A stretch of 41,219 nt of DNA from IMG/VR virus record IMGVR_UViG_3300030110_003847, positions 601 to 41,819 of that record; one strand, written 5' to 3'. The first letter of the stretch is position 1; each line of letters begins with the position of its first letter. Origin of the DNA: a virus. Of this stretch, positions 1 to 41,219 are shown piece by piece. A model generated the notes under the pieces. It had not been told where the DNA came from, made no database searches, and saw only the letters and a list, made by a program, of their open reading frames with translations. Made by a program: the position numbers and the translations under genes.

Positions 1-216
1 ACCTATACACTCATCGAATCTAATTTGAACTGGTGGTATTGGTATATTATATTTGTCCTTTGGTACTGTTTCAATACAATCAACAGGACAGAACGGCACA
101 CATACTTGACAACCTGTACAGTTATCTTCATCTACTACAGCTATTAATTTTGGTTTTTTCTTTTTGTGATTTATTTTTGTGGTGGGGTCTGGAACTGATT
201 TGTAATGGTCATACAT
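1..216 (-). CDS. 2[4Fe-4S] ferredoxin, N-terminal part (runs off left edge)
   Basis: The frame is open from an ATG at 216 to the window edge, giving 72 residues with no stop, so the gene is partial. Residues 33-44 read CTGCQVCVPFCP, the classic CX2CX2CX3CP binding pattern for a 4Fe-4S cluster. A second cluster starts at the edge (DECIG, C70). Residues 1-24 are a basic, lysine-rich leader (KKKKPK). Bacterial ferredoxins of this type are small cytoplasmic electron carriers. The start overlaps the stop of the upstream gene as TAATG, so it belongs to the same operon. Family assignment is firm; the redox partner is unknown. The radical SAM enzyme at 9895-11427 would need a low-potential electron donor, but that link is only inference. 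Confidence 0.85.
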   Translation of the reverse strand, partial: MYDHYKSVPDPTTKINHKKKKPKLIAVVDEDNCTGCQVCVPFCPVDCIETVPKDKYNIPIPPVQIRFDECIG

Positions 217-500
217 TATGGCTGAAACATATCCCACACGTGTTTAACAAATAACCCTACGAAACCTGTACCTATGATACCTCTCCACTTTGACGTTGAT
301 TGTCTAAATTGTGTATTGAGTTTAGTTTCTGCCCATAACCCTTGATGTGGATTGAATAAATTGTCTTTAATGAATTTTAAATCGGTTCTGTTCTTCATAT
401 GTTCAGCTTCATTGTGAATTTTTATTTCATTGATGGTATTCTTTATAGTATCTATTTTCTCGTGTATTAAGTCGAATTCTTTTCTATCTGATTGATTCAT
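216..500 (-). CDS. Small membrane protein with coiled-coil N-terminus
   Basis: This 94-residue protein has a charged, probably helical N-terminal half (residues 5-40, heptad-like I/L spacing) and one hydrophobic segment near residues 74-90 (GIIGTGFVGLFV), ending in an aromatic tail. A good ribosome-binding site, AAGGAA, lies about 8 nt before the ATG at 500. Its start overlaps the end of the 48-residue gene upstream, and its stop overlaps the ferredoxin start. I do not recognise the family. Topology is compatible with a small phage holin-like or membrane accessory protein, but nothing in the sequence proves that. Confidence 0.7.
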   Translation of the reverse strand: MNQSDRKEFDLIHEKIDTIKNTINEIKIHNEAEHMKNRTDLKFIKDNLFNPHQGLWAETKLNTQFRQSTSKWRGIIGTGFVGLFVKHVWDMFQP

Positions 501-630
501 TTATTATTTCCTTACGTATCTTAGTAACCACATCCAATATAGGATTACTAAGATTGTTAATACCAATTCTGTCATATGTGTCATAAACCACGAAGGAATC
601 GTTGGTCGTTACTATATAAATATTACTCAT
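484..630 (-). CDS. Short hypothetical protein (48 aa)
   Basis: A 48-residue frame fills the otherwise empty gap between the HNH-like gene and the membrane-protein gene. It starts MSNIYIVTTNDSFVVYDTYD and ends in a basic helix (VVTKIRKEIINESIR). The ATG at 630 (an alternative lies one codon upstream at 633) is preceded by AAAAGG, and the frame overlaps the stop of the upstream gene. Its end overlaps the next start by 17 nt. Position, spacing and ribosome-binding site support a real gene. No function is recognised. Confidence 0.55.
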   Translation of the reverse strand: MSNIYIVTTNDSFVVYDTYDRIGINNLSNPILDVVTKIRKEIINESIR

Positions 631-1201
631 CATCCTTTTCCACCCACACTTCTTCTAATTTTTTGCGTAATAATGTGGTATTTTTAGGTGTGGTTAACAT
701 TTTGCCTGTTGGCTTCATTATATAGAAACAATTATAACATAGTAGATGTAAGTTATCTAACGAATGATTTTTAGAATCACCATCGAGGAAACATATTAGA
801 TACGGGCCTCTCATATCTTTTTCTCTATAGTCATCATAACCACAATTGGAACACTCTTGTTTTAGATAACCATCTCTTACTATTCTTTCTTGTAATTTCC
901 AATGTGGATAGTTAGGGTGTTTACCATCAAATAAATCTTGTATCTTTACTCCCCATCCTGTATTACCTTTTGATGTGATACCAACACCCGCTTGATTTTT
1001 ATTTTGTTCAAATAAGTCATACATTTTTGCGTACTTCTTAAATGTATTATATGCGATACCAAGATGACGAGCAGCAGCTTTAATTGACATTGTACTACGT
1101 ATTGCCCACTCTATTCTACTCTTTGGAATTGGTTTACTACGAAATGGATTCTTTTTCTTTGGTCTGTTTTCGTAATCAAACAAATCATTTAAATCAGACA
1201 T
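623..1201 (-). CDS. Helix-turn-helix protein with degenerate HNH/zinc domain
   Basis: The 192-residue protein has a basic N-terminus and a helix-turn-helix-like segment at about 36-60 (SIKAAARHLGIAYNTFKKYA). A C-terminal HNH-type zinc module at about 117-160 has CSNC and CYNC cysteine pairs around FLDGDSKNHSLDNL. In active HNH nucleases the metal-binding site has a His pair before the Asp and a His after the last CxxC. Here those positions read CF and FY, so cleavage activity is doubtful and a DNA-binding role is more likely. The start overlaps the preceding stop as TAATG. Proteins of this layout are, to my knowledge, common in marine T4-like phages. Confidence 0.7.
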   Translation of the reverse strand: MSDLNDLFDYENRPKKKNPFRSKPIPKSRIEWAIRSTMSIKAAARHLGIAYNTFKKYAKMYDLFEQNKNQAGVGITSKGNTGWGVKIQDLFDGKHPNYPHWKLQERIVRDGYLKQECSNCGYDDYREKDMRGPYLICFLDGDSKNHSLDNLHLLCYNCFYIMKPTGKMLTTPKNTTLLRKKLEEVWVEKDDE

Positions 1202-1425
1202 TAAGATTTTCCTGTTGATTTAACATTTCTTCTTTGTTTACGAGGTGGTGGTTTTCTTGAAACTCTTTTTAATAACTCGTCTTTTAATAATTTTCTTTGT
1301 GTTCTTAAATCGTGAATTTCCGAGTACAAATCCCCAACCTTTCTAGCACTCAAAAGTGCCATAGTCATTACTCCACCCATACTACCAATAAAAATTCCTA
1401 TTGTAAATAATACCCATTCATTCAT
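1201..1425 (-). CDS. Small single-pass membrane protein
   Basis: The 74-residue protein has an N-terminal hydrophobic segment at residues 4-27 containing GxxxG-type spacing (GIFIGSMGG). A helical charged region and a very basic C-terminal tail (RKPPPRKQRRN) follow. By the positive-inside rule the tail is cytoplasmic. A strong ribosome-binding site, TAGGAGAAAG, precedes the ATG. I do not recognise the family; small membrane proteins of this kind are frequent in the early regions of T4-like phages. Confidence 0.7.
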   Translation of the reverse strand: MNEWVLFTIGIFIGSMGGVMTMALLSARKVGDLYSEIHDLRTQRKLLKDELLKRVSRKPPPRKQRRNVKSTGKS

Positions 1426-1434
1426 AACTTTCTC

Positions 1435-1668
1435 CTAAAAATCATCTAATTTAGTGGTTTCACCTCTCCACCACTCTACTTTACCGATTGGTTTTAATTC
1501 TTTTGTATATTCTTTTACTATAAACAACTTATTAAAAGTTTCACCATCTAAATTCTTTCTTAATCTAAAATATGTATGCGCTTCTTCATAAATATCAGTT
1601 TGTAAACTCACCGTATCTACTGCCTCTGTTTCATCACTATTAACCGTAAAAAGTTGCCAAGTACTCAT
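1435..1668 (-). CDS. Hypothetical phage protein (77 aa)
   Basis: A 77-residue soluble acidic protein with no signal peptide or membrane segment. The middle (EEAHTYFRLRKNLDGETFNK) is probably helical and the C-terminal part has strand-like KLFIVKEY. AGGAGAG about 7 nt upstream of the ATG at 1668 is a strong ribosome-binding site. It lies between the lipoprotein and the small membrane protein in one operon with gaps of 9-16 nt. Function is unknown. Confidence 0.65.
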   Translation of the reverse strand: MSTWQLFTVNSDETEAVDTVSLQTDIYEEAHTYFRLRKNLDGETFNKLFIVKEYTKELKPIGKVEWWRGETTKLDDF

Positions 1669-1684
1669 ATACTCTCTCCTGTTA

Positions 1685-2197
1685 TTAATTTAAAATAATA
1701 TAAAAATCTTTACTTCCATCATACCAACGGGCTGTTAATTTCATAGTGTCTCCTACCATACTTTTTACTGGAGCTATCATATTATTTATTTCACCGTTAC
1801 TATTACTATAACTAATCATATTTGACGTAGCTACTTCCATACCACTAAACTGTGTTAAGTATGTGGTATCGTATGCGACATACATTCCCTCATCATTAAA
1901 ATTTCTTTTTACGACATAACCTAACGTATCACCAATATACCAATATAAATTACTTTTCCACTCAACCCAAAAGTTTTCTACACCAAATCCTTCATCTCGT
2001 ATTGAGCCTGTAACCTTGTGAAGTGTTTGCCAATTATCCCTATCCAATGTTAGGTGATGATATCCTCTACCATCTTCTTTTAATCTTAAATCAAATGATA
2101 ACTCGTGGTGGGTACTATTGTCCTCACACGATATTAATAAAAAACTAAGTATTATTCCTACTATTAAATTGTTTTTTATTTTGCTGTGACTTTTCAT
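1685..2197 (-). CDS. Predicted phage-encoded lipoprotein
   Basis: The 170-residue protein begins with a basic n-region (MKSHSKIKNN), a hydrophobic stretch (residues 11-22) and the lipobox LISC with the acceptor Cys at 24. Glu follows the Cys, so the +2 rule for inner-membrane retention (Asp) does not apply and an outer-membrane destination is plausible. The mature part is about 147 residues, strand-rich, Trp- and Tyr-rich, and has no other membrane segment. AAGGAA lies 6 nt before the ATG. It is the second gene after the promoter at 2333-2362, so it is probably made early. Phage lipoproteins such as T5 Llp block superinfection at the receptor; that role here is inference only. Confidence 0.75.
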   Translation of the reverse strand: MKSHSKIKNNLIVGIILSFLLISCEDNSTHHELSFDLRLKEDGRGYHHLTLDRDNWQTLHKVTGSIRDEGFGVENFWVEWKSNLYWYIGDTLGYVVKRNFNDEGMYVAYDTTYLTQFSGMEVATSNMISYSNSNGEINNMIAPVKSMVGDTMKLTARWYDGSKDFYIILN

Positions 2198-2312
2198 TTT
2201 GTTCCTTTTTGTTTTTGTTTTTAATTTTATGATTTATTTTATTGCGAATCATTTCATTTTGAGTATTGTCTTCAACTTCATCCCAATCCTCCCAATTATG
2301 AATCCTCGGCAT
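2145..2312 (-). CDS. Short basic hypothetical protein (55 aa)
   Basis: A 55-residue frame starts MPRIHNWEDWDEVED and then becomes rich in Lys, Asn and Gln. It has a consensus ribosome-binding site, AAGGAGAA, 5 nt before the ATG at 2312. It is the first gene downstream of the promoter at 2333-2362 and overlaps the start of the lipoprotein gene by 53 nt in another frame. Small proteins with a Trp/Asp-rich start and a basic tail are frequent in marine T4-like phages. Function is unknown. Confidence 0.6.
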   Translation of the reverse strand: MPRIHNWEDWDEVEDNTQNEMIRNKINHKIKNKNKKEQNEKSQQNKKQFNSRNNT

Positions 2313-2332
2313 TTATATTCTCCTTATGTCTA

Positions 2333-2362
2333 AATATAATACTAAAAGCGTATACAAGTCAA
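2333..2362 (-). promoter_or_regulatory. Sigma70-like (probably early) promoter
   Basis: On the minus strand the -35 box TTGACT (2362-2357) and the -10 box TATATT (2338-2333) are 18 nt apart; TTATAT with 17 nt is an alternative. The -35 box overlaps the stop of the upstream gene. The same architecture with nearly identical sequence occurs at 37086-37115. The shared block runs AATAAAAAGC, then (after GC here only) TTGACTTGTATACG and TTTTA. The promoter would drive the 55-aa gene, the lipoprotein and the small genes to the left. Duplication of the element makes chance unlikely. Confidence 0.7.
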
Positions 2363-2601
2363 GCGCTTTTTATTTTCCATTTTTCTAATTTATCTAAAAA
2401 TTTAGTAATAGTATATTGTTTTTTTTGTTCGTCAACAATCTGTAAAGATTCTAATAGCTCTGGCTTTTGATTTATTATTCTATTTAATATCATAAAACCA
2501 ACTGACGGGTAAAACGTTTCAAAACTTTCTTCTCCTAAAACATTTGTTTCATATATGGAATCCTTTTCAGAATCACCACTCAGTAATAAGTAGTATGTCA
2601 T
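2359..2601 (-). CDS. Conserved small phage protein (80 aa)
   Basis: The 80-residue protein starts MTYYLLLSGDSEKDSIYETNVLGEES in strand-like fashion and ends in helices (TKFLDKLEKWKIK). I recall related 80-90 residue proteins with the same SGDxEKD and ETNVLGEESF elements in marine cyanophage-type genomes; none has a known function as far as I know. No strong ribosome-binding site is visible before the ATG at 2601. It is the last gene after the sugar island and before the next promoter, which begins inside its stop codon. Confidence 0.6.
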   Translation of the reverse strand: MTYYLLLSGDSEKDSIYETNVLGEESFETFYPSVGFMILNRIINQKPELLESLQIVDEQKKQYTITKFLDKLEKWKIKSA

Positions 2602-2618
2602 ATTACAAAAACTTATTT

Positions 2619-2996
2619 TTAATTATCATTTTGAGAATCACCTTTCATAACTCTATATGAATCTGAATCTTCGTGATGTGTAGATACTTCAAATATTCTA
2701 CCATCTGTTAATGCTTCTATTTGATGTGGTTGTCCTGGTCTTTGTCTTACAACATCACCATTTGATATTATGGTCTCATCCATCTCTGCAGTTTCTGTAT
2801 CTATCCATCTATATATAAACTCACCGTGTTCTACATACCAAGTCTCATCCTTTTTCATATGATAATGCATAGAAAATTTACAACCTTTGTTGAATACTAA
2901 AACTTTACCACAATAGTTTTCATTATTTTCTATGATTATTTCTTGACCCCAACCTTTGGGAACGCAACATCCAATTGTAACTTCTGATTTTATCAT
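2619..2996 (-). CDS. Cupin-fold protein, sugar isomerase-like
   Basis: This 125-residue single-domain cupin carries the metal-ligand pattern of type II mannose-6-phosphate isomerase-like cupins: HYH at about 44-46, a Glu in DETWYVEHGE, and PHQI near 90. It opens with KGWGQE, the same W-G-x-E start seen in the second cupin of this window (20338-20814). Its start overlaps the stop of the epimerase gene upstream as ATGA. A role in isomerising or binding a sugar phosphate or nucleotide sugar is likely. The exact reaction cannot be read from sequence. Confidence 0.65.
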   Translation of the reverse strand: MIKSEVTIGCCVPKGWGQEIIIENNENYCGKVLVFNKGCKFSMHYHMKKDETWYVEHGEFIYRWIDTETAEMDETIISNGDVVRQRPGQPHQIEALTDGRIFEVSTHHEDSDSYRVMKGDSQNDN

Positions 2997-3853
2997 AATA
3001 TACTTTTAATGTAATCCGTGACATCTTTTGTTGGATTCCAACCTAAGTATTTTTTAGCGTTGTTATCTTTACATAAAGTTTCTCTCATCTCACCATTTCT
3101 ACTATCTATATACTCTCTTGGATAATCACCAAAAACATCTGCTATTTCATTAATAGAATAATTTTTACCTCTACCAAGTTCATATTCTGTATGTAAAGTA
3201 TTTATGTTATCTGCAGCTTTAATTAATCCATCTACAATATCTTCTACGTGAGTAAAATCTCTTCTTTGTTTGCCATCATCTGTAATTGTTAATGGTTTAT
3301 TATTTTTATATTGATTTTCAAATATACCAACGACAGTACAATAATCACCCTCTGTAAGTTGATGTGGGCCGTATACATTATAAAATCTACAAATAGTAGT
3401 TCTAACCTGATATACCAATGAATACATCCTACACAACTCTTCACCCTGCCACTTTGTAAAGGTATATGGATTCGTATAGTTTCCACCGTGTGTTGAAGAT
3501 GAACCAGCATAAATTACTGGTATTCTCTTCTCAGTTTTCATAGTTCTAACCCACTCTAGTATGTTCATCGTAGCCAGAACATTATTTTCAAATGTGCTAG
3601 CTGGATACTCAAATGATGGTTGTATTCTTGGGAGTGCTGATAAATGAAATACTACGTCAGGATTTTCCATAAAATAGTCGAAATTAACACAATCTCTTAT
3701 ATCCGCATTAAAATATTCACAACCCTCTTGTTCATTTTCTTTTTTACCTGTATGATAGTTGTCAAGAGAAACCACTTTGTAACCATCTTTTAACAATCTT
3801 TTTATTAGGTTAGTACCAACAAAACCAGCACCACCAGTAACTAATGCTTTCAT
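2993..3853 (-). CDS. NAD-dependent sugar epimerase/dehydratase (extended SDR)
   Basis: The 286-residue protein has the Rossmann motif TGGAGFVG at residues 6-13, the active-site Ser region YAGSSSTHGG and the YxxxK catalytic pair in YTFTK. The C-terminal KYLGWNPTKD is typical of UDP-glucose 4-epimerase and related NDP-sugar SDRs. The length is slightly short for the family (about 310). The usual SSxxYG has become SSSTHGG. It probably converts a nucleotide sugar used by the island. The start overlaps the glycosyltransferase stop as ATGA. The substrate is not determinable; GalE-like 4-epimerisation is the default reading. Confidence 0.8.
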   Translation of the reverse strand: MKALVTGGAGFVGTNLIKRLLKDGYKVVSLDNYHTGKKENEQEGCEYFNADIRDCVNFDYFMENPDVVFHLSALPRIQPSFEYPASTFENNVLATMNILEWVRTMKTEKRIPVIYAGSSSTHGGNYTNPYTFTKWQGEELCRMYSLVYQVRTTICRFYNVYGPHQLTEGDYCTVVGIFENQYKNNKPLTITDDGKQRRDFTHVEDIVDGLIKAADNINTLHTEYELGRGKNYSINEIADVFGDYPREYIDSRNGEMRETLCKDNNAKKYLGWNPTKDVTDYIKSIL

Positions 3854-5580
3854 ACTTTTATTAAATCCTTTTCATAAGTTTTTAATGAATTAATGTTAAA
3901 TTTAAATATCTCTAACTCCATTTCACCAACCTCACCACTTTCTTTAAGTATTGACGATAACTCTACTAATATTTGAAAATTACTTGAATTTAACAATTTA
4001 ACATCAAATTCAATTACAATATCATTATTTGGTTTGTTTTGATGTGAATGTTTGATTCTATCTGATAAATTAAATTCAGTATCTTTTTGTTCGTGTTTTA
4101 CATATGATTCTATAACACCCGTGTATTCTATATAAATTGTAGAACACCAAGGCTCTAACTCTTTCAATAAATTATAATCACAGTTCTTTACAACAAAACC
4201 AATATCATATTTCGGTGGTATAATCGGATACATCATTTCATCGTGTTTAACCATATGACCCCACTTACGAATAAAGTTTCTTGTGCTACGTAAGTTTTGT
4301 TCTAACCACTCTGATGATTCTCTGCCTTTCATAAATACTTGTCCAGCTGGATTACGTAATGCTCCATCTTTGAATCTTGAACCTCTACAAGTCATATGAT
4401 ATACAAAACCTTTCCAAGTTTGAACTAAATCATAACCATTCAATACAAATCTATTGAATATGTCTGAATCTTCTTTTGATTGTGGTGCATATAGTGGGTC
4501 GTGTCCATTTATCTCTTGGAAATCTTTTTTATATATAGCCCACGGAGCAAATATACCTTTTGTTGGTTTTGCACCTGTATCTGTAGTATTTAAAAATTCA
4601 AATAGTTCTTGTTCTTTAAATTCTTCAGGTTCTATTCCAAAGTCTCTTAATATCTTTTCTGGCCCATCAGGATGTAGTGGTGGTTCGATTCTTGTTGCGG
4701 ATACCACAGTGCCAGGTTTTATTAATTTAAGTATCTCCGTATCCATATAAGGACAAGCATACATATCGGCGTGATATATCATCACGATATCATTTGTAGC
4801 GTAGTCATTTACAAGAGTATCATAAAGTATTGTGTGACCTAACCTATTAGGCCCTTCGTTTCTATGTATCTTAACATTTGGGTCTTTTTCTGCTATCTCA
4901 TTCATCCACTCCCACGTTCCGTCATCTGAATAATCATCTGCCCAACATATCTCGTGATGTGAACCTAAATTCTTTCTGATACTATCATAAGACCATTTGA
5001 GGTATTTTAAATTGTTTCTACTAGGTTGAATAAAACTTATCGTTTTCATATTCTCTTTCCATATTTTTTCCAAATCTTCAAAATAAAAATCTGGTTTGAC
5101 TTTAGCGTTGTGTTTATCTATCTGAAATAGTTCTTCTATGGGATATACACTTTCTAAATCAATTAAACTTATTTTTCCGTCTTTTGTTTTTATTATATTT
5201 ATTGGAACTAAATCATAAAAAAACATTTCCTTTACAATCGTGGCATCTATTACCTTTTTATAAAATTCTTTTGGTATTGAATCAAAATCAAATTCTGATG
5301 TTGATAGTTGTTGTCCACTTTCAGTAATGTAACCAATTATATCATCACCATCTACTATTAATGACTTTAATGCTGGTGCTAATCCATCAAAAAAACCACA
5401 CTCATATGCATCAATAAAGTTTTGTCTTCTACAATACTCCATATCAAATACCTTATAAAAACTATCTTTATCTCGTAGTATTTTTCTACCGTGATTTATA
5501 CCATCAACCCACCTTCCAGCTTTATCTAATATAACCTCAAGTGAATTTAAATCTATATCTTGTATATTGATTCTTTTCAT
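3850..5580 (-). CDS. Kinase-like domain fused to family 2 glycosyltransferase
   Basis: The ATG at 5580 is chosen because it gives an ATGA overlap with the upstream stop, as elsewhere in the operon; an ATG 15 nt earlier is possible. The product is 576 residues. Residues 1-175 look like a small kinase/APH fold, with a catalytic-loop-like YDLVPINI (122-129) and a metal-binding LIDLE (139-143). From about 181 a GT-A family 2 domain follows: ISFIQPSRN, then DDYSDDGTW (215-223) and a DxD-like YHADMY. The last 100 residues are unassigned. It would transfer a sugar and perhaps phosphorylate the glycan. Domain calls rest on motifs only. Confidence 0.7.
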   Translation of the reverse strand: MKRINIQDIDLNSLEVILDKAGRWVDGINHGRKILRDKDSFYKVFDMEYCRRQNFIDAYECGFFDGLAPALKSLIVDGDDIIGYITESGQQLSTSEFDFDSIPKEFYKKVIDATIVKEMFFYDLVPINIIKTKDGKISLIDLESVYPIEELFQIDKHNAKVKPDFYFEDLEKIWKENMKTISFIQPSRNNLKYLKWSYDSIRKNLGSHHEICWADDYSDDGTWEWMNEIAEKDPNVKIHRNEGPNRLGHTILYDTLVNDYATNDIVMIYHADMYACPYMDTEILKLIKPGTVVSATRIEPPLHPDGPEKILRDFGIEPEEFKEQELFEFLNTTDTGAKPTKGIFAPWAIYKKDFQEINGHDPLYAPQSKEDSDIFNRFVLNGYDLVQTWKGFVYHMTCRGSRFKDGALRNPAGQVFMKGRESSEWLEQNLRSTRNFIRKWGHMVKHDEMMYPIIPPKYDIGFVVKNCDYNLLKELEPWCSTIYIEYTGVIESYVKHEQKDTEFNLSDRIKHSHQNKPNNDIVIEFDVKLLNSSNFQILVELSSILKESGEVGEMELEIFKFNINSLKTYEKDLIKV

Positions 5581-6347
5581 AAGTTTGCTTTCCATCCAAG
5601 TTTTTGTTCTTTTATAGTATCATACTGAACTATTAAATCTTTTTTAGGTATTGCGAATTTATAGTCTGGAAATCTAAAAGGCCCATTTTCAAAATCCCAA
5701 TATCCCTCAAAGAAATTACCAACGTGTCTATATCTTATTGGTATATCGTGTTCACAGTCTTCACCTTTTTCTAAAAACTCTTCAAATCTAAATTTAAACC
5801 AATCTGTTTTTTGAACTCCCTCTGGTGTTATTCTTTTGTAAGGTGAATATTTTCCACTATGAAAATAAACATATTCACCCACACCATAACCATCTGATGG
5901 ATACTTATCCCAATAATTCTTTACAATGGACGCACCAAGTTCTAACTCTCCACTAACATATGGTTCTTTATTGTATTTGTCCATTTTATTTATTAATAAA
6001 AAATCAACTTCGTGTTTTACCAATGCTTCGTCAACAACATTTTGCCATTCGTCTTTAGTTAATAAAAACTGTTGGTCTTCATTTATGTTAACTGAATATG
6101 GTGTTGTTACCTCATTTAATAACGACAACATTGTTGCTGCCCAATCTTTTTCAAGATTATTATAGAAGTTTAATTTTGGTATATATTTTTTATAAAGAGA
6201 ATGTACTTCATCTAAATTAACTTCATCATTAAAATTAACAAAAAATTCATAATCACCCCAAATATCACCAACTATTGGTAAGTTGTCCTCAAGTATTTTT
6301 AGTCTCTCTGGAATAGTGCATATAAAATTTTGAACAACACTAATCAT
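5577..6347 (-). CDS. Glycosyltransferase-like protein, paralogue of the gene at 14041
   Basis: The 256-residue protein shares a clear set of motifs in the same order with the 284-residue protein at 14041-14895: FFVN, then a Y-K-x(1-2)-I segment, FYNNLEKDWAAT, LLNEVTTPYSV and an ED-x-x-F element. The ED pair could be the metal-binding acidic motif of a GT-A fold, but this is inference. Nothing marks it as secreted. It ends with ATGA overlap to the kinase-glycosyltransferase fusion and starts directly after the upstream TAA. I do not recognise a named family; a surface-glycan transferase is the best guess. Confidence 0.55.
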   Translation of the reverse strand: MISVVQNFICTIPERLKILEDNLPIVGDIWGDYEFFVNFNDEVNLDEVHSLYKKYIPKLNFYNNLEKDWAATMLSLLNEVTTPYSVNINEDQQFLLTKDEWQNVVDEALVKHEVDFLLINKMDKYNKEPYVSGELELGASIVKNYWDKYPSDGYGVGEYVYFHSGKYSPYKRITPEGVQKTDWFKFRFEEFLEKGEDCEHDIPIRYRHVGNFFEGYWDFENGPFRFPDYKFAIPKKDLIVQYDTIKEQKLGWKANL

Positions 6348-6749
6348 TTACCAACTGACTTCCCAATCTTTAAATTCAGCAGCTATACAATCTATCTTAT
6401 AATCTTTTCTACCACCAACTACTTCCATAATCTTATTTGAAGCTGTTTGTCTTATTCCATTGATACCGTGAGTAAGATGAAGATTACCATCCTTATCACC
6501 ATTTCTAACTTTTGTTTCATTGTACCAAATGTGAGCATTCATTTGAGAAAGAACAATAATCGCTCTAATAACCTCTCCTGTTATTTCATCTCTATGTTCT
6601 TCTAATATTGAATCAATATCGTGAATCATATCCTTAATTTCTTTAGCGTAATTATCTTTATTCTCAGCTATAAATATTTCTTTTAACTGATGTATACTAA
6701 GTCTATCTATTAGTTCACCTAATGTTGGTAACCATTTTCTTTCACTCAT
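6348..6749 (-). CDS. Conserved glycan-cluster protein of unknown function
   Basis: The 133-residue, mainly helical protein opens LPTLGELIDRLSIHQLKEIFIAE. It contains the segments IWYNETKVRNG and LTHGINGIRQTASNKIM and ends DCIAAEF. I have seen similar proteins beside sugar-nucleotide genes in bacteria and marine phages, always without a defined role. It is coupled to the RmlC-like gene upstream by ATGA and abuts the next gene. It may be an accessory to the dehydratase and epimerase steps next to it, but that rests on position alone. Confidence 0.55.
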   Translation of the reverse strand: MSERKWLPTLGELIDRLSIHQLKEIFIAENKDNYAKEIKDMIHDIDSILEEHRDEITGEVIRAIIVLSQMNAHIWYNETKVRNGDKDGNLHLTHGINGIRQTASNKIMEVVGGRKDYKIDCIAAEFKDWEVSW

Positions 6750-7222
6750 TTGTCTCTCCCATATAATATTGGATTGTTATGTGGCCATTCAAAATTCCAT
6801 TCAGGGTCATCCCATTTAATAACGAACTGATTAGGAACATCATTGTAATCTCCATCAAAAGCTAACTTATAATGAAAAGTACACTCATCACTTAAAACAA
6901 AATACGATCCTGCACATCCTGGAGGTGTCAATATTTGTTTTCTATTTTCTGCAGATAATATAAAAGAATCCCAAGTTTTATATGTAGGTGAGTCTTTTCT
7001 ATTATCAGCTAATACGTAATAAAACTTACCATATACACAACTAATTAATTTGTGTGTTTTATCATCTCCGTGTAAACCTCTCAAAACATTTTTTTGAGAA
7101 TGTGCAAATTTATCTAATCTCCAATTCAAATCAGGATAATCCTCTTTTTTCCAATTGGTATAGATATCCCCTCTGAAATCCTCGTGTCTATCAGGTTGAA
7201 ATGTCAATACATCTTTAATCAT
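6746..7222 (-). CDS. RmlC-like NDP-4-keto-6-deoxysugar 3,5-epimerase
   Basis: The ATG at 7222 is preferred: it has GGAGAG 9 nt upstream and overlaps the previous stop as ATGA. The 158-residue product has RmlC landmarks: HEDFRGDIYTNW (12-23 region), VLRGLHGD with the catalytic His, KDSPTY, and LTPPGCAGSYFVLSD. The usual GFAHGF is GCAGSYF here, so one conserved His is missing, which leaves catalysis or substrate range open. It sits directly beside a GDP-mannose dehydratase-like SDR, so a keto-sugar produced there is the likely substrate. Confidence 0.75.
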   Translation of the reverse strand: MIKDVLTFQPDRHEDFRGDIYTNWKKEDYPDLNWRLDKFAHSQKNVLRGLHGDDKTHKLISCVYGKFYYVLADNRKDSPTYKTWDSFILSAENRKQILTPPGCAGSYFVLSDECTFHYKLAFDGDYNDVPNQFVIKWDDPEWNFEWPHNNPILYGRDK

Positions 7223-8184
7223 AGTATCTCTCTCCAATAATTTAATAAATCTTCACAAATATGTATTAAATCCTTTTTTGGCTCCCAACCAAAATGTTTT
7301 TTAAACTTATCTGTGCTTGGTATTTGTAAAGTTATGTCTGTGGGTCTAACTCTATCAGAATCTAATAACGGCTTTAAGTTAAGTAACGGTGACAATGACA
7401 ATAACGTGTCTAATGTATCTCCTACCGTACAAGTGTAATTACCACCGATATTATATATCTCTCCAAACCTATCACTTTCAGAACATATCCAATATGCTCT
7501 TATTGCATCTTCTATGTGATTGTATGTTCTAACTGATTCTAAATTTCCGTGTCTGATAAAACCATCACCATTTCCCTTTTCATTTTGTACAATTTGATGT
7601 GCAAATGAAGAAAGTGCAAACTGTTTACCTCTTCTTGCTCCCTCGTGTGAAAACATACGAGTGATTATAATTTTCATATCATATGCATTATGATAATATT
7701 GTGACATCAAATCGTGTCCTACTTTTGATATTGAGTATGGATTAGCAGGTCTGATTGGATTATCTTCTTTGATTGGTATCTCATCTTCTTTTGGCATACC
7801 ATAAACCTCAGATGAAGAAATACTGACTATAACAGGATTGTAATCTGAATTCTTTATTGATTCTAATAAATGAGTAGTACCAATAACATTAGTCTGTAAA
7901 GTAATAACTGGTGTTTTAAAGCTAACTTCTGGAAAACTCTGTGCTGCAAAATGAAACACTTTGTCTGGTTTTGAAATTTGGATAGCTCTTTCAACTGATA
8001 GTCCATCAAGTAAATCACAATCCACAAACTCAAATCTTTTGTCATCAATGTGGTCTACGTTCTTAGTATCTTCCATCCACCTTTTAGTAGCGAATATTTT
8101 TACATCGGTTTCGTGTTTTAAAATGTAGTCAATCATATGACTACCAACAAAACCAGTGCCACCTGTTATTAGAATATTATTCAT
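7219..8184 (-). CDS. GDP-mannose 4,6-dehydratase-like SDR
   Basis: The 321-residue protein has GGTGFVGSH (8-16), SSSEVYG with the catalytic Ser/Glu environment of 4,6-dehydratases, NPYSISK (YxxxK) and a C-terminal RPTDI...KFKKHFGWEPKK segment typical of the GMD/Rmd group. It probably makes, or reduces, a GDP-4-keto-6-deoxy sugar. The next gene is an RmlC-like 3,5-epimerase, as in 6-deoxyheptose and fucose-type pathways. It overlaps the transketolase gene upstream by 8 nt. Dehydratase versus reductase cannot be decided by motif inspection. Confidence 0.8.
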   Translation of the reverse strand: MNNILITGGTGFVGSHMIDYILKHETDVKIFATKRWMEDTKNVDHIDDKRFEFVDCDLLDGLSVERAIQISKPDKVFHFAAQSFPEVSFKTPVITLQTNVIGTTHLLESIKNSDYNPVIVSISSSEVYGMPKEDEIPIKEDNPIRPANPYSISKVGHDLMSQYYHNAYDMKIIITRMFSHEGARRGKQFALSSFAHQIVQNEKGNGDGFIRHGNLESVRTYNHIEDAIRAYWICSESDRFGEIYNIGGNYTCTVGDTLDTLLSLSPLLNLKPLLDSDRVRPTDITLQIPSTDKFKKHFGWEPKKDLIHICEDLLNYWREIL

Positions 8185-9127
8185 TTCTAAATTTAAGCAC
8201 TTTATCGTAAATTGAATCTACTGATAATCCATTATTATCTAAGTGGTAATCTCTATCTCCATTTTCAAAAATATATCTTTCAGGTAATCCTATTCGTAGT
8301 AAAGGTTTTTGCACATTATTATCTGACATTCCCTCTAATACAGCGGAACCAAATCCTCCTGATAAAGTTTGTTCTTCTACTGTGATAACTTTATCGTATT
8401 GTTTGAATACTTCCTTCATTTTAACTATAGGATTAGGTTTTATCTTTGACATATTGTACAATGAAACTTCCATATTATTTTTAAGAAATTTATCTTGTAC
8501 ATCAAGACATCTACCTAACATATACCCATACGATATTATAGATATTTTAGTTTCTTCTTTTCTCATTGGATTACCAAAAAGACCACCCTTAACCATAGAA
8601 TATCCTACTCCGTTAGGTGTTTTCATTTCATCGAATCGAGAATCATATTTTCTCTCAAGTCTAATATATCTTAGTTTTTGATTTTCATACGATTCTTTAA
8701 CTAACTCTTTAACGTGTGTTGAACTAGCTGGACAGTCTATTTCAACGTTTAACAAAGACCTCATATAAGCTATATCTTCATTTGTTTCGTGTGCTGGCCC
8801 TGCTGGTGCGTATCCTAAAGCTACTCCGTTAGACAATATTGTAATTGGATTATTTGGCATAGAACAAGAATATCTTATTTGTTCAAAACATCTTGCTGAC
8901 CAAGCTGCCATAAAATAAACATATACTTTTTTACCAGCAGCTGATAACCCAGCAGCTAAGTTAATACTATGTTGTTCTGAAATACCAGTCCAAATAAATT
9001 GTTCAGGTAATTCTTCTCTCCAACTATCTAATGCAGATGCTCCCATATCAACACTAATTAATATAACATCTTTATCTTTTTTTGCAATTTCAAATAATTC
9101 TGAAATAAATGTATCTCTTTGTGTCAC
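8177..9127 (-). CDS. Transketolase C-terminal half (pair A)
   Basis: The 316-residue protein covers the pyrimidine-binding and C-terminal domains of transketolase. GISEQHSINLAAGL carries the Glu that activates thiamine diphosphate, and SGGFGSAVLE lies in the C-terminal domain. The start is GTG at 9127, with GGAGAA upstream and a GTGA overlap with the N-terminal half. Split transketolases work as alpha2-beta2 complexes that move two-carbon ketol units. Its partner is the gene just upstream (9124-9891). It differs strongly from the second C-terminal half at 16463-17398, so this is not a recent duplication. Confidence 0.85.
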   Translation of the reverse strand: MTQRDTFISELFEIAKKDKDVILISVDMGASALDSWREELPEQFIWTGISEQHSINLAAGLSAAGKKVYVYFMAAWSARCFEQIRYSCSMPNNPITILSNGVALGYAPAGPAHETNEDIAYMRSLLNVEIDCPASSTHVKELVKESYENQKLRYIRLERKYDSRFDEMKTPNGVGYSMVKGGLFGNPMRKEETKISIISYGYMLGRCLDVQDKFLKNNMEVSLYNMSKIKPNPIVKMKEVFKQYDKVITVEEQTLSGGFGSAVLEGMSDNNVQKPLLRIGLPERYIFENGDRDYHLDNNGLSVDSIYDKVLKFRNE

Positions 9128-9891
9128 GATAAATTCTCCAATCCAATTTTAATATCTTCTTCACTTGATGGAACTATAGTGTGATATTCCCACTTGCCTT
9201 CCATATAACTAACTCCCTTACCCTTTGTTGTTTTAGCAATTACAACTTGTGGTGATTGATTTGAAAATACACTCCTTAAGCTATCATAATCGTGTCCATC
9301 AATCTCTGCTACATCATTAACGAATGACTGAAACTTATCGTGTAAAGGTTCTAACTTTAACATCTTCTCAGTTTCACCAATAGTTCCAAGTCCGTTTCTA
9401 TCAATTATAATTCGTAAATTTGATAAATTATGATGTGAAATATACATAAGACTTTCCCAAACTGAACCTTCGTATAACTCAGCATCACCCATTATGATAT
9501 ATATATTTTTATCTGGTTGAGCTTGTGCTAATCCACTAGCGTATCCTATACCATTACCTAAAGAACCACCAACAAAATGACAGCCTGGAATTGTCCAATC
9601 GGAGTGTAATCTTAAAATACCACCAGGTCTACAATACTTTTCTAACTCATCTTTAGGAAAATAACCTAAATCTGCTAATATTGGATAAATAGATGGTGAA
9701 CCGTGTGCCTTACCAAACATCACTATATCTTTTTCGTGATTAAAATCGGTTTTATCATCATAAAATAAGGATACCAATACATCAACGGGTGACAGAGAAC
9801 TGTGTAAATGTCCTATACCATCTCTTGTCTTAAACTCAAAAACAGTTTTCCTAACTGATTTTGCTATTTTTTGTAATTCACTATTGTTCAT
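9124..9891 (-). CDS. Transketolase N-terminal half (pair A)
   Basis: The 255-residue protein is the thiamine-diphosphate pyrophosphate-binding half of transketolase: GHLHSSLSPVDVL, KAHGSPSIYP, LGNGIGYASGLA and the metal-binding stretch GDAELYEGSVWE ending in IIDRNGLG. In pair B the equivalent is GDGEMQEGQVWE, so the third position of the usual GDG is Ala here. That suggests different kinetics or substrate, not loss of binding. GGAGAA precedes the ATG. It follows the radical SAM gene by 3 nt. Confidence 0.85.
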   Translation of the reverse strand: MNNSELQKIAKSVRKTVFEFKTRDGIGHLHSSLSPVDVLVSLFYDDKTDFNHEKDIVMFGKAHGSPSIYPILADLGYFPKDELEKYCRPGGILRLHSDWTIPGCHFVGGSLGNGIGYASGLAQAQPDKNIYIIMGDAELYEGSVWESLMYISHHNLSNLRIIIDRNGLGTIGETEKMLKLEPLHDKFQSFVNDVAEIDGHDYDSLRSVFSNQSPQVVIAKTTKGKGVSYMEGKWEYHTIVPSSEEDIKIGLENLS

Positions 9892-9894
9892 AAT

Positions 9895-11427
9895 TTAATT
9901 CTCCAATATTTTTCTTTTTAATTTTATTTTAGTATTTTCTAAAATATTATTAACTGCTATTTCACCATAAGTTTCTCTAACTTTATTTAAAAATGGTTCG
10001 TATGTATGATATTTTAGATAGGCTTCATCTCTGAACTTCAAGATTTGTTCAGGTGTTAATTCATCAGTAGGTAATGGTTGTGTTGTGTAGGCGTGAAATG
10101 AATAACCAGCATAATCTTCAGGTAATTTGAATCCTCTATCCACTGCGTCTTTATATAACTGACTACCTGGTAGTGGCATAGCTGCGTATGCATTCCAAGC
10201 TATTGTACATAACTCGTAACTAAGTTGTAATGTTTTTTCCATCGTTTCCATAGTATCAGTAGGTAAACCAAACATATAGTTAGCTATAATACCTATATCA
10301 GCCTCGTGAATTTGATTTACAACCTCAACAATATTAACATCTTCAAACTTTCCTTTTGATATTTCTAATCTAACATTTCTGTCTGCACTTTCAATACCAA
10401 GACATAACCATTTAATACCAGCCTTTCTTAGATTTTTTAATATACCTGGTCTTCTGATAGTATCTACTCTTGAATAAGCCCATATTCTTAGATTATCTTT
10501 TTTATTTCTTTCAGCTAATAAATCAACTAAAGGTATATAGTATTTAGGATTTAATAAAAACATCTCATCAGCTATTCTGATAGTCTCTACACCCATTTCT
10601 ATTAGTTTATCAAACTCTTTGATAATAAATTCAGGTGACCAAAACCTCATTTTATTATAGTTTCCAGCCACACCTATTTCTTCATTGTCATCTCTGTTTA
10701 ATATGTTAATCATACAAAACTCACATTGAAATACACAACCCAATGAGGTGTATAATGCAGCATAAGGTGTTCTCTTATCGTGGTCATACTCTCCGTGCCA
10801 CATTGGTGAACGATATAAATCAAAAGGTGTCTCTTTATATGGTAGTAAATCCCAAGCGTAACCAGGTAAATCTAAATCCATTCTATCATTAGGAACTATT
10901 TTTTCAGGCTGAGTTAGATGTGGTTTACCATCTTTTATAAAACCTATACCATTTATGGTTTCTAATTGTTTTTTATCCGTTAAGTCTTTTAACTTTAAGA
11001 TATTCCACAATGAATAAACACCTTCATTTGTAAAAATTATATCGATGTTTGGTTCTTCACTTAAAACTTTATATGGTAATGCCTGAACGTGAGAACCAAC
11101 AAATGATACTGGTATATCTACACCACTTTCTTTTATTAAGTTAGCTAACTTAACTGCACCACTCATTTGAGTAGTTCCTGAATTAACATTTTCACCATAA
11201 ACACATACTGATATTAATCTTGGGTTTAGTGTTTTAATTCGTTCTACTGCATCTTTACGTGAGATACCCTCTGCTAGAATATCTAATATACCAACTTTGT
11301 ATCCTTGTGATCTACAAGATTGTGAAAGCAATAACGCCCAATAAGGTGTTCCTATACCAGCGTAATCAGTTGATAATCCCTGATAAACCTCTTCTGAACT
11401 TCCTGGATTTATAAATAAAATATCCAT
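9895..11427 (-). CDS. B12-binding-domain radical SAM enzyme
   Basis: ATG at 11427 is taken as start (a TTG lies one codon earlier); length 510 aa. Residues 1-145 resemble the N-terminal cobalamin-binding-like domain of this class (DILFINPG, VGSHVQALP), without an obvious DxHxxG ligand motif. CVFQCEFC (C231, C235, C238) is the CX3CX2C site for the 4Fe-4S cluster that cleaves S-adenosylmethionine. IESADRNVR and FGLPTDT are typical downstream motifs. Such enzymes do radical methylations or rearrangements on inert carbons; the substrate here is presumably a sugar. The start overlaps the stop of a tiny upstream frame as TGATG and follows a hairpin, so expression may be regulated. Confidence 0.85.
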   Translation of the reverse strand: MDILFINPGSSEEVYQGLSTDYAGIGTPYWALLLSQSCRSQGYKVGILDILAEGISRKDAVERIKTLNPRLISVCVYGENVNSGTTQMSGAVKLANLIKESGVDIPVSFVGSHVQALPYKVLSEEPNIDIIFTNEGVYSLWNILKLKDLTDKKQLETINGIGFIKDGKPHLTQPEKIVPNDRMDLDLPGYAWDLLPYKETPFDLYRSPMWHGEYDHDKRTPYAALYTSLGCVFQCEFCMINILNRDDNEEIGVAGNYNKMRFWSPEFIIKEFDKLIEMGVETIRIADEMFLLNPKYYIPLVDLLAERNKKDNLRIWAYSRVDTIRRPGILKNLRKAGIKWLCLGIESADRNVRLEISKGKFEDVNIVEVVNQIHEADIGIIANYMFGLPTDTMETMEKTLQLSYELCTIAWNAYAAMPLPGSQLYKDAVDRGFKLPEDYAGYSFHAYTTQPLPTDELTPEQILKFRDEAYLKYHTYEPFLNKVRETYGEIAVNNILENTKIKLKRKILEN

Positions 11428-11450
11428 CAAATAACTTCTTTAGTAACCAT
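11427..11450 (-). CDS. Possible 7-codon leader peptide coupled to the radical SAM gene
   Basis: An ATG at 11450 lies exactly 9 nt after GGAGGA, a near-perfect ribosome-binding site, and opens a seven-residue frame, MVTKEVI. Its TGA shares one base with the ATG of the radical SAM gene (TGATG). That gene has no good binding site of its own, so reinitiation after this leader is an attractive reading. The GGAGGA is in the right arm of the hairpin at 11460-11478, so folding would mask it. It could equally be chance next to a terminator. Confidence 0.3.
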   Translation of the reverse strand: MVTKEVI

Positions 11451-11478
11451 AAAAAAAAATCCTCCAATTAATGGAGGA
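11451..11478 (-). terminator. Rho-independent terminator or ribosome-site-masking hairpin
   Basis: On the minus strand TCCTCCA and TGGAGGA pair perfectly (7 bp) around a five-base loop and are followed by nine T residues (11459-11451). This is a textbook intrinsic terminator at the end of the long right-hand operon. The second arm is also a Shine-Dalgarno sequence, placed 9 nt before an ATG, so the same hairpin could control translation. The stem is short, so termination may be partial. Confidence 0.7.
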
Positions 11479-11619
11479 CACTCTATTTAAAAGTGCCCCC
11501 GTTTATAGTCTAACTGTGGTTGGTTGGGTCTTTGGTACATAATCAAATGTCCTCTGTTTACCACTTTGACTTCTCTTATTAATATATATCAACAAAAAAT
11601 AAAAAAACTTATTATTTTT
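11479..11619 (-). other. Intergenic leader, possible short RNA with 17-codon frame
   Basis: Together with the hairpin this is the only sizeable gene-free stretch (189 nt in all). On the minus strand it begins with a T-rich run and TTGATATATATTAATA, which might hold a promoter. It then has AGAGGA 9 nt before an ATG at 11540 opening a 17-residue frame (MYQRPNQPQLDYKRGHF, ending at 11487), and finishes in the hairpin. It might encode a small peptide or be a terminated short RNA or leader. Evidence is weak for each part. Confidence 0.25.
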
Positions 11620-12381
11620 TTAAAACCGAGTGCCTCTCGGATATCTATTTAATCTTTTTAACTTATCAACACCTGGAAAATCATCACCTTTATATTCACA
11701 ATCATCAAATACAGCTCTTATTATTTCTGTATTTCCATTTCCCTTTTCTGACTCTTGAAATTTGTCTATCATATAGACATCAATATTATTTTTTGTTGGC
11801 CACATATATAAATCACTATGTGGTGTTCCACGACCCAAGTCTTTCCAATGTTCGTGAAAACTATTAATTATATCCATATTTTTAGATGAGGAAAAGTACC
11901 AATAATCTAAAATTGTAGGTTTTTGTGGATTGGGTGGATTACTTTTAGCTATATACATAGCGTTAGGGTCTTCCATAACTTCATTAAAAACTAAATCTTC
12001 AAAAAATCCCACATCAAATCTCGAAGACATCACCACATCATATGTAAAATCATTTTCTTTTTCATATTCTTTTTTTAATTCTGTTACTTGTTTTGTACTA
12101 TACCATCTACTTTCTATAAAATTACCACGCATAATTTCATTATCAAACTGAATTTGTTCTTGAAACTTACTTTTCTTAGGCTGATATAATTCTGTGAGTT
12201 GTTTTTCGTATTGAGTATCCCAACAATGAATAAAAACATCAACTGTATCATTTACATCAAAAATATGTTTTTTAAAAAAGTGATGACCTATTCTGAAGTC
12301 TACATCACCACTCCATTCATATCCTTGTTTATTAGTGTAAAACTTACCAACTACACCACTCAACAAAAAAGCAGCTCTCAT
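11620..12381 (-). CDS. Putative glycosyltransferase of unknown family
   Basis: The 253-residue protein starts with a Rossmann-like strand (MRAAFLLSG), contains DVFIHCWDT at about 48-56 and VVMSSRFDVGFFED in the middle, and ends with a basic tail (KRLNRYPRG). These elements match a loosely defined group of surface-glycan proteins that I believe are GT-A-type transferases, with the RFD acting as a DxD equivalent. No membrane segment is seen. The ATG at 12381 overlaps the carbamoyltransferase stop as TAATG. It is the last gene before the hairpin at 11451-11478. Confidence 0.5.
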   Translation of the reverse strand: MRAAFLLSGVVGKFYTNKQGYEWSGDVDFRIGHHFFKKHIFDVNDTVDVFIHCWDTQYEKQLTELYQPKKSKFQEQIQFDNEIMRGNFIESRWYSTKQVTELKKEYEKENDFTYDVVMSSRFDVGFFEDLVFNEVMEDPNAMYIAKSNPPNPQKPTILDYWYFSSSKNMDIINSFHEHWKDLGRGTPHSDLYMWPTKNNIDVYMIDKFQESEKGNGNTEIIRAVFDDCEYKGDDFPGVDKLKRLNRYPRGTRF

Positions 12382-17398: not shown

Positions 17399-17399
17399 A

Positions 17400-39224: not shown

Positions 39225-39990
39225 AAAATCCTTTTTGTTCTACTTTAAATTCTTCTATTTCTAATTGACTTGAACTAACTTTTGGATAAGTTAGTTTTGG
39301 ATGTTTTAATGTATTAATAAATAGTTTGTTTTCTTTCTTACTACCAATAAAATATACGTATCTATGTTTTTCAGGTTCTCGCATTCTCCAAAAAGTATCA
39401 CCAATCGCTTTCTTTAACTTCTCAATGTTATGACTACCAAATCTTGAAAATACAGTTCTACTATGTATCCACGAATAAGGTTCTTTTGTTAGAGACACAG
39501 AATAGTTTGGCATCAAATTTAAACCCTCTCCTTGATAAATCCAATTAGTAGCTTGATAAATACCACCAGCGTGTCTTTGTGCTGGGTCTGCATATGATAT
39601 TAAAACTTTTATATCTTTTGCATTTTCTTTTAACCACTTAAATGATTGTGATATTGAATATGATTCTATATTCTTACCATAACCATCGTGAATAAAAAGC
39701 CTTGTTAGTTCTAAAATATTGTCCGTGTCTAATATAGACTCATCTTTAAAAATAGAACCAACAACACTTCTACCGACTGGATAACCATATGACATACAAC
39801 CTATAAGTTGTTCATCTACATCATCAAAAAACTTGTGTTGTTTTCCTGTCTGATAAAATATACCTAATGCATATCTACAAGATGAAAATGAATGACTATA
39901 ATGATATTTCTTTATTATCTTTTTAGCTAAAGATTTTGGTATCTCTCTTAGAGAAACTTTTGAAGTATCACAAGTTTCAATCTTGTTCAC
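39217..39990 (-). CDS. Mom-like GNAT-fold DNA-modification protein
   Basis: GTG at 39990 is the likely start (TTG at 39999 is possible); about 257 aa. The acetyltransferase-like core has LIGCMSYGYP, ELTRLFI (94-100), and the signature SYADPAQRHAGGIYQATNW (132-150), followed by IYQG. This is close to the conserved SDP...G-IYQA-N region of Mom-family proteins. A C-terminal HRYVYFIGSKKENK element recurs in phage members. Mu Mom modifies adenine in DNA and thereby blocks restriction. Whether this protein modifies DNA is not known. It lies between gp45 and gp44, overlapping both, so it is expressed with the replisome. Confidence 0.7.
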   Translation of the reverse strand: MNKIETCDTSKVSLREIPKSLAKKIIKKYHYSHSFSSCRYALGIFYQTGKQHKFFDDVDEQLIGCMSYGYPVGRSVVGSIFKDESILDTDNILELTRLFIHDGYGKNIESYSISQSFKWLKENAKDIKVLISYADPAQRHAGGIYQATNWIYQGEGLNLMPNYSVSLTKEPYSWIHSRTVFSRFGSHNIEKLKKAIGDTFWRMREPEKHRYVYFIGSKKENKLFINTLKHPKLTYPKVSSSQLEIEEFKVEQKGFYE

Positions 39991-40702
39991 TCGTTCCAAC
40001 TAACCAATATGTTGATGTGAAATCGTCTACTTTGAAATTAATTTTAGCTAAACCTTGACTACTAATTTCTAAGGTAGCACTTTCACATTCTTTATTAGCA
40101 CTTAATACTTCTTTAAATAAGTTTGCATTAAAAGACACATTCTCAATATCAGAAACTTTTGGTGTTGTTACTGGTATTGTAACTCTATTAGTATTAATTG
40201 TAGCGTAACCAATAACTAATTTTGTATCAGTACCATCTGTTATTACTGTAAAGTTATCAGCTTCACTCAATGCAGATTTACCAGAGATAAATTTACTGAT
40301 AAATTGTGGTGTAACATCAATACTTAATTCAAATTCAGGTATTGTTTTCATCTGTGGTGGTTCATTAATAACCGATGTATCACTTAACATATAATTTACA
40401 GCCGATGACCTATCAGTTAATTTTAGTGAAATTGCTTTTTCACCAGATTTAGTTAACGACACACTTACATCATCATCCATAACCGTTAACAACTTTAATA
40501 ATTGTTCTGTATTATAGACACCGATATCAGAATCTTCAAAATTCCATTTGTCCATTGTTAAGTCACCCAACAAAGTTTTATCACCTGATATAAACCTCGT
40601 AGATAACTCTTGTGAACTTGAATTACTATTTAGAACAACAGAATTAACTGTACCGTTTAAGTAGTATTTATTAATGAAACGAACTAGCTTTTGCTTATTC
40701 AT
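39977..40702 (-). CDS. 45: Sliding clamp, gp45
   Basis: The 241-residue protein matches T4 gp45 in length (228) and pattern: an N-terminal LVRFINKYYLNGTV helix-strand and MDKWNFEDSDIGVYNTEQLLKLL, close to the IYDLNGFLGILSLV region. The middle has IDVTPQFISKFISGKSAL, and the C-terminal FTSTYWLVG matches the HANYVVAL strand. It forms a trimeric ring on DNA that holds polymerase and, in T4, activates late transcription. AGGAGAA precedes the ATG. The nearest neighbours, gp43 and gp44, support the call. Confidence 0.9.
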   Translation of the reverse strand: MNKQKLVRFINKYYLNGTVNSVVLNSNSSSQELSTRFISGDKTLLGDLTMDKWNFEDSDIGVYNTEQLLKLLTVMDDDVSVSLTKSGEKAISLKLTDRSSAVNYMLSDTSVINEPPQMKTIPEFELSIDVTPQFISKFISGKSALSEADNFTVITDGTDTKLVIGYATINTNRVTIPVTTPKVSDIENVSFNANLFKEVLSANKECESATLEISSQGLAKINFKVDDFTSTYWLVGTSEQD

Positions 40703-40763: not shown

Positions 40764-41219
40764 TCAAAAAAATCTTTCTATAGTTTTAGAGGCATCTGTT
40801 GGTTCATCCCAATTAAGTGCCTGATAAAACATCATAATTTTTTTATGTAAAGCTTGTTTATATAACTTACTGGGATTTATAAACTGTCTTATAAAATCTA
40901 ATATCTCTGGTGGGTCTTCGTAACCTTTATAAGCTATTGTTTGTAATCCAATTGGATTTGGTTTTAAATAAACCCACATAATCTTTTCACCATCAAATAT
41001 TTGTGAATATCTTTTTGAAACTTTTAAATGTTTAAGTAAGTCATTATAAAATATAGCTGACTTAACGTGAACGGGTGTTCCTAACTTATACGAAGTAAAT
41101 AAGTTTCCATCTACAATACCATATTTTTTTATACCCTTTACACTCGTTGGTATTGCAATTTTATTAAAATCCATAAGTTTCATACTGTTTTTAAAATTAA
41201 TAATGAATTTATCTAATTT
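40764..41219 (-). CDS. 43: DNA polymerase gp43, C-terminal end (runs off right edge)
   Basis: The frame is open to the right edge, giving 151 C-terminal residues; the internal ATG at 41183 is not the true start. The segment matches the thumb of T4 family B polymerase: IAIPTSVKGIKKYG, GTPVHVKSAIFYNDLL (T4 CPFHIRGILTYNRAI), GEKIMWVYLKPNPIG (GEKVYVLPLREGNPFG), and the tail TIERFF, where T4 has its clamp-binding peptide SLFDMFDF. A C-terminal Phe-rich peptide that binds gp45 fits its immediate neighbour. The polymerase active site lies outside the window. Confidence 0.9.
   Translation of the reverse strand, partial: KLDKFIINFKNSMKLMDFNKIAIPTSVKGIKKYGIVDGNLFTSYKLGTPVHVKSAIFYNDLLKHLKVSKRYSQIFDGEKIMWVYLKPNPIGLQTIAYKGYEDPPEILDFIRQFINPSKLYKQALHKKIMMFYQALNWDEPTDASKTIERFF

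Follow-up and report, generated by a model that had tools for sequence, protein, structure and literature searches.

A host-type 2[4Fe-4S] ferredoxin carried by T4-like phages that very probably infect Marinimicrobia

The stretch of DNA analyzed here (the window; 41,219 bases) corresponds to positions 601 to 41,819 of contig C1 of a 41,819-base virus record (G000), with 600 bases of the record preceding it. It opens with the first two thirds of a small gene on the minus strand, which the initial annotation had read as a phage-encoded, bacterial-type 2[4Fe-4S] ferredoxin; Pfam 4Fe-4S models, the cluster motifs, and the viral nature of the record all bear out that reading (Table 1). The translation of this part, MYDHYKSVP...DEDNCTGCQVCVPFCPVDCIETVPKDKYNIPIPPVQIRFDECIG, is open at the window edge, and the last 102 bases of the gene lie outside the window, at record positions 499-600, of which 591-600 are N. 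Extending the contig leftwards, as had been proposed, completed the gene. In the gene direction, the first ten of the 600 added bases are Ns, after which the frame runs on unchanged to a stop, giving a gene at record positions 499-816 (minus strand) with both start and stop in view, whose 105 aa end in ...EVYDYEIS. The product is therefore a small free-standing ferredoxin, not the domain of a larger protein that the initial annotation had named as the contrary outcome. The start assigned to position 216 also fits, because its ATG overlaps the stop codon of the ORF upstream (TAATG).

Table 1. Features of the window discussed in the text (window coordinates)
Feature	Position	Strand	Remarks
Ferredoxin gene, 5' two thirds	1..216	-	ATG at 216; Pfam Fer4_21/Fer4 above cut-off
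Small ORF, 94 aa	216..500	-	directly upstream of the ferredoxin gene
HNH endonuclease-like gene	623..1201	-	PHROG 14736, E 2.6e-12
Split transketolase-like gene pair	8177-9891		inside a long sugar-nucleotide/glycosyltransferase island; 8177-9127 has NCBIfam matches to transketolase/dxs
B12-binding radical-SAM protein	9895-11430		nearest NCBIfam models HpnJ and BchE, far below their cut-offs
Split transketolase-like gene pair	16463-18164		inside the same island
Small clamp-loader subunit (gp62-like), phage hallmark	37121..37639	-	PHROG 225, E 5.2e-13
T4-like clamp loader gp44, phage hallmark	38310..39224	-	PHROG 168, E 1.1e-84
Mom-like DNA modification gene	39217-39999		between clamp and clamp-loader genes; PF25680 E 1.8e-45, PHROG 1384
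T4-like sliding clamp (gp45)	39977..40702	-	PHROG 223, E 6.6e-12
T4-like DNA polymerase (gp43), C-terminal end	40764..41219	-	runs off the window; PHROGs 1918/262

The first cluster motif is intact in the record (CxxCxxCxxxCPxxC). The second reads CIG, ten Ns, and (N)GT-AKVC; two of its cysteines are masked by the Ns at record positions 591-600, and the reading frame stays open across the gap and allows the expected cysteines. Relatives have CQIC, CQLC, CQVC, or CSIC at the gap position with the spacing unchanged, all 16 viral relatives from IMG/VR carry CxxCxxCxxxC at motif 2, and none of the eight ligand cysteines varies across 30 viral and cellular sequences. Chance is excluded because 37 columns are invariant across 15 viral sequences. 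The Pfam models Fer4_21 (40.6 bits; cut-off 35), Fer4 (28.8; cut-off 21.1), and Fer4_7 (29.6; cut-off 27) scored above their cut-offs, as did Fer4_2, and models of the plant-type [2Fe-2S] ferredoxin (PetF) gave no match to the window protein, which matched 4Fe-4S models only. By these motifs and matches, the window protein is a bacterial-type 2[4Fe-4S] ferredoxin, predicted to hold two clusters at low potential; the family acts as a low-potential shuttle of single electrons. An Alvin-type (Chromatium) ferredoxin, which is recognized by extra residues within the second cluster motif, was ruled out by the plain motif 2 of the relatives.

An AlphaFold2 model of the protein of a sister phage (L003) has a strand and helix order that fits a duplicated beta-alpha-beta arrangement, at low model quality (mean pLDDT 61, pTM 0.47). 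No PHROG matched the ferredoxin, and a tblastn search of the INPHARED phages with the window ferredoxin gave no match; the same collection returned a single weak partial match to an L014-type ferredoxin query. Short N runs within open frames occur at G000:591-600, L134:17171-17881, and L136:3900-4229. The frame continues in each case seen, which suggests that the gaps are of correct length and not arbitrary scaffold gaps.

The surroundings of the gene are those of a phage. The HNH endonuclease-like gene also lies upstream of the ferredoxin in the sister phages L003 and L004, a conserved phage gene order, and the family of the small ORF at 216..500 also precedes the ferredoxin in L004. The order is shared by the window phage, L003, and L004: in all three, the ferredoxin follows the same HNH-like gene and precedes the same small ORF, so it was probably present in their common ancestor. 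The window gp44 is 92-94% identical to that of G001 and G002, the nearest ferredoxin-carrying phages. Together with G004, G005, and G009, these phages form one T4-like lineage (mutual identity 61-94% for gp44 and 62-89% for gp43), and G010 stands apart as a T4-like phage only distantly related to them (gp44 37-39%). Both gp43 and gp44 are present in G001, G002, G004, G005, G009, and G010; G004 also has a gp23 capsid gene and G005 a terminase. A DNA search of phages with window positions 1-12000 gave no match, and no tRNAs were found in the window.

In IMG/VR, another 16 viral loci encode relatives of the ferredoxin over its full length (61-90% identical), and scanning the species genomes of bacteria and archaea yielded 80 cellular relatives, mostly from Candidatus Marinimicrobia / Neomarinimicrobiota (SAR406). 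Percent identities in the cellular scan were measured against the sister copy L003, with 88% the best. The nearest cellular ferredoxins are those of Marinimicrobia (e.g., L019 and L020), and the likeness extends over the whole length: L019 is 81% identical to the window copy (84 of 100 readable positions), identity to the viral sisters L003/L004 reaches 88%, and both cluster motifs and the stretch between them are the same. The viral copy differs in beginning about six residues later and in sitting among phage genes, and the viral sisters are slightly less acidic.

We built a ferredoxin tree of 97 sequences, 17 of them viral, from an alignment whose 111 columns leave the inner forks uncertain. 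L003 and L004 group with the window copy in a starred clade (support 99/97), which is nested in a starred set of 22 rows (98/96), the cellular members of which are nearly all Marinimicrobia. Such a tree had been suggested as a way to reveal the donor lineage and hence the host, and it points to Marinimicrobia. The cellular sequence L034, from a bin labelled Flavobacteriaceae, groups with Marinimicrobia ferredoxins in the tree; L034, L043, and L047 are labelled Flavobacteriaceae or Patescibacteria yet carry this ferredoxin, and may be misbinned or mislabelled.

The 17 viral rows are spread over six places in the tree, and no fewer than five changes are required by the starred branches alone. 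AU tests rejected a single clade both for the viral rows as a whole (p = 3.1e-5) and for those of Marinimicrobia type (p = 8.9e-4). Joining the window group with the L008/L018 group was not rejected (p = 0.145), and these two could still stem from a single capture. Because most cellular copies sit in recurring cellular surroundings, several captures by phages from different host clades are the simplest reading of the tree. We noted one cellular copy with virus-like surroundings, on a Neomarinimicrobiota contig (strain T3L19; L027:4736-5315). It groups with viral copies L005-L007, its upstream small ORF belongs to the same family as in the viruses, and the genome has another copy of the ferredoxin (L049); the L027 copy is possibly what remains of a phage, or else a locus from which phages took the gene. 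In the distant phage group L014-L017 the ferredoxins resemble those of Poribacteria (64-69% identity, with a similar stretch at the C-terminus), which were considered as donor, but we claim no donor for this group because the tree leaves a Poribacteria origin undecided.

A second gene bears on the host. A TonB-dependent receptor of 924 residues is encoded by the sister phage G014 (L134:8043-10817) and also by G001 (L130) and G002 (L131), and Marinimicrobia genomes contain genes 58-68% identical to it. In all three phage records the receptor gene directly follows a class II ribonucleotide reductase (RNR) gene, and in G014 it directly precedes the ferredoxin. Known phages gave distant matches only (about 30% or less), and a phage-borne TonB-dependent receptor of such a kind seems unusual. 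Because two unrelated host-derived genes agree, the ferredoxin and the sisters' receptor, the host is very probably a member of the Marinimicrobia (SAR406).

We consider it probable that the gene is an intact, selected auxiliary metabolic gene (AMG) of T4-like phages, derived from a Marinimicrobia host, that sustains the flow of 2-oxoacid-derived electrons during infection. The phage-made ferredoxin would accept low-potential electrons from host 2-oxoacid:ferredoxin oxidoreductases, at the 2-oxoglutarate step of the TCA cycle and, in some lineages, from pyruvate oxidation. It would then supply with them both a complex I that uses ferredoxin or flavodoxin and reductive biosynthesis, and in this way keep energy and reducing power from running down after the takeover of host protein synthesis.

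Several observations on the host side favor a carrier placed between 2-oxoacid oxidation and complex I or biosynthesis. First, PorB/KorB matches were found in 17 of 17 host-type genomes; they are strong in most, and mostly just under the NCBIfam cut-off. Second, in all three Marinimicrobia KorAB-type loci that we read, an alpha-beta pair is followed by what appears from its sequence to be a fumarase-like gene, which points to a role in the TCA cycle. Third, a cellular locus from a genome labelled Patescibacteria (L043) has the order KorB, another ferredoxin, this ferredoxin, NuoB, NuoI. Finally, a comparative genomics study reports that most Marinimicrobia have a complex I that lacks the NADH-reductase subunits, for which it proposes a donor such as flavodoxin, and that PFORs occur mainly in mesopelagic groups (PMC6143742). 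At most Marinimicrobia loci, the ferredoxin is not beside KorAB or Nuo genes and instead adjoins an ApbC/Mrp-like gene and another ferredoxin, or cytochrome oxidase genes, so the assignment of partners draws on a few loci (L043 and L047) and on what is generally known of ferredoxins.

The best of the alternatives, itself unlikely, is that the ferredoxin feeds phage dNTP synthesis, either through thioredoxin to a class II (B12-dependent) RNR or through NADPH to ThyX. The sister phage G001 encodes a class II RNR (TIGR02505, 372.6 bits against a cut-off of 340), RNR-family matches also occur in G002, G010, G011, G013, and G014, ThyX is found in G001, G011, and G013, and a spirochaete locus (L089) has a pyridine-nucleotide-disulphide oxidoreductase near the ferredoxin gene. 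However, neither RNR nor ThyX turned up in every ferredoxin carrier, many of whose records are fragments, and ferredoxin:thioredoxin reductase (PF02943) matched in none of 17 host-type genomes. This last result makes a direct route from ferredoxin to thioredoxin unlikely, and we have demoted it; an indirect route through NADPH may still serve the phage RNR.

It is also doubtful that the ferredoxin supplies electrons or clusters to phage Fe-S proteins, such as a radical-SAM enzyme or a Cas4-like nuclease, or helps in Fe-S cluster assembly. The window does encode both a B12-binding radical-SAM protein and a PD-(D/E)XK nuclease, and the initial annotation had offered service to an iron-sulfur enzyme, such as the radical-SAM protein or the Cas4-like nuclease, as one purpose of the ferredoxin. 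For the radical-SAM protein that proposal did not hold up well: a Radical_SAM match occurs in only one of 15 ferredoxin-carrying viral records, with none in the other 14 (many of them fragments), which makes service to the radical-SAM enzyme unlikely. As for cluster assembly, the group L014-L017 has its ferredoxin beside Rieske, glutaredoxin-like, ErpA-like, and NfuA-like genes; such assembly genes were found in this group only, and neither the window phage nor its sisters yielded any. A cluster-supply role may therefore apply to that group. Its Fe-S genes follow the ferredoxin at L014:8001-10375, L015:7992-8927, L016:969-2881, and L017:7992-9856, a possible iron-sulfur supply block made up of Rieske (L014), glutaredoxin-like (L015 and L016), and ErpA-like and NfuA-like (NifU domain) genes. 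Near the ferredoxin of the viral record L016 there is also an ammonium transporter gene (L016:3321-4574; PF00909, 392 bits).

T4-like phages commonly hold host-derived genes, and the window is rich in sugar-nucleotide genes, which would be in keeping with a neutral gene picked up by chance. For the window copy against its two viral sisters, however, dN is 0.036 and dS about 1.1, and dN/dS is about 0.02-0.09 across the other measurable viral pairs, ratios being given for those pairs with an estimable dS. Such low values between viral copies indicate purifying selection, i.e., a gene that was kept working. These ratios, the invariant cysteines, and the five or more separate changes on the tree make it very improbable that a neutral host gene was carried along by chance; as judged from the tree and the ratios, this is repeated capture of a functional gene. 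Least credible of all is an error of assembly or classification that made host DNA pass for virus: several other carrier records are short and had no hallmark match in our searches (G003, G012, G013, and G014), but the window record itself carries gp43, gp44, and gp45 homologues, hallmark genes recur in the other carriers described above, and the gene order around the ferredoxin is common to independent viral contigs and unlike that of host loci.

The preferred reading remains an AMG that probably sustains host electron flow. At the level of sequence, the evidence comprises an intact gene, both cluster motifs (the second via relatives), viral context, host-type descent, purifying selection, and several independent captures. 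Three features expected of an AMG are found: phage hallmark genes on the record, descent from a host metabolic gene (the copy is nested among Marinimicrobia ferredoxins), and function preserved by selection; expression in infection, with an effect on host metabolism, would be predicted.

Phage-borne electron carriers of other kinds offer comparisons. Cyanophage PetF is a phage-borne plant-type [2Fe-2S] ferredoxin; it resembles the present protein as a soluble ferredoxin for host electron transfer and differs in fold, in cluster type, and in its photosynthetic electron source. Closer is the 4Fe-4S ferredoxin of Lake Baikal Nitrospirota viruses (population VP_99), reported to be 86% identical to that of the host, and another virus population from the lake has parts of a 2-oxoglutarate:ferredoxin oxidoreductase (PMC7678222). 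By its published description, the Nitrospirota virus protein is likewise phage-borne, host-derived, and of the 4Fe-4S type, whereas its host is an autotroph of another phylum living in fresh water. The flavodoxin that Bacillus phage 0305phi8-36 is described as carrying is also a small phage-borne electron carrier, but a flavin protein of unrelated fold (PMC9405906). Fe-S related genes, with ferredoxin-type domains noted, are described in viruses of the eastern tropical North Pacific oxygen minimum zone, in the part of the account available to us with no specific protein, host, or phylogeny given (PMC8940887). Our literature search, of incomplete coverage, returned no paper describing a ferredoxin AMG in Marinimicrobia phages. 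Phages with a host-like 4Fe-4S ferredoxin have thus been described before; what is added here is its repeated capture and the assignment of a host.

Marinimicrobia, largely uncultivated, occur widely in dark and low-oxygen ocean waters, and to our knowledge little is known of their viruses. They have been named among newly added viral hosts (PMC4533152). Through the ferredoxin and the TonB-dependent receptor, a clade of T4-like phages can now be assigned to a probable host. Repeated capture suggests that keeping host electron flow running matters in infection, and that ferredoxin-linked electron transfer is a node of host metabolism worth controlling outside photosynthesis as well; such control could be tested with a small soluble protein. 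More tentatively, ferredoxin may be a recurrent target of phages in Marinimicrobia: since the TCA cycle there would depend on a 2-oxoacid oxidoreductase that needs ferredoxin, each phage lineage may re-capture the copy of its own host clade. If so, a viral ferredoxin would both mark the host clade and redirect electrons of its central carbon metabolism.
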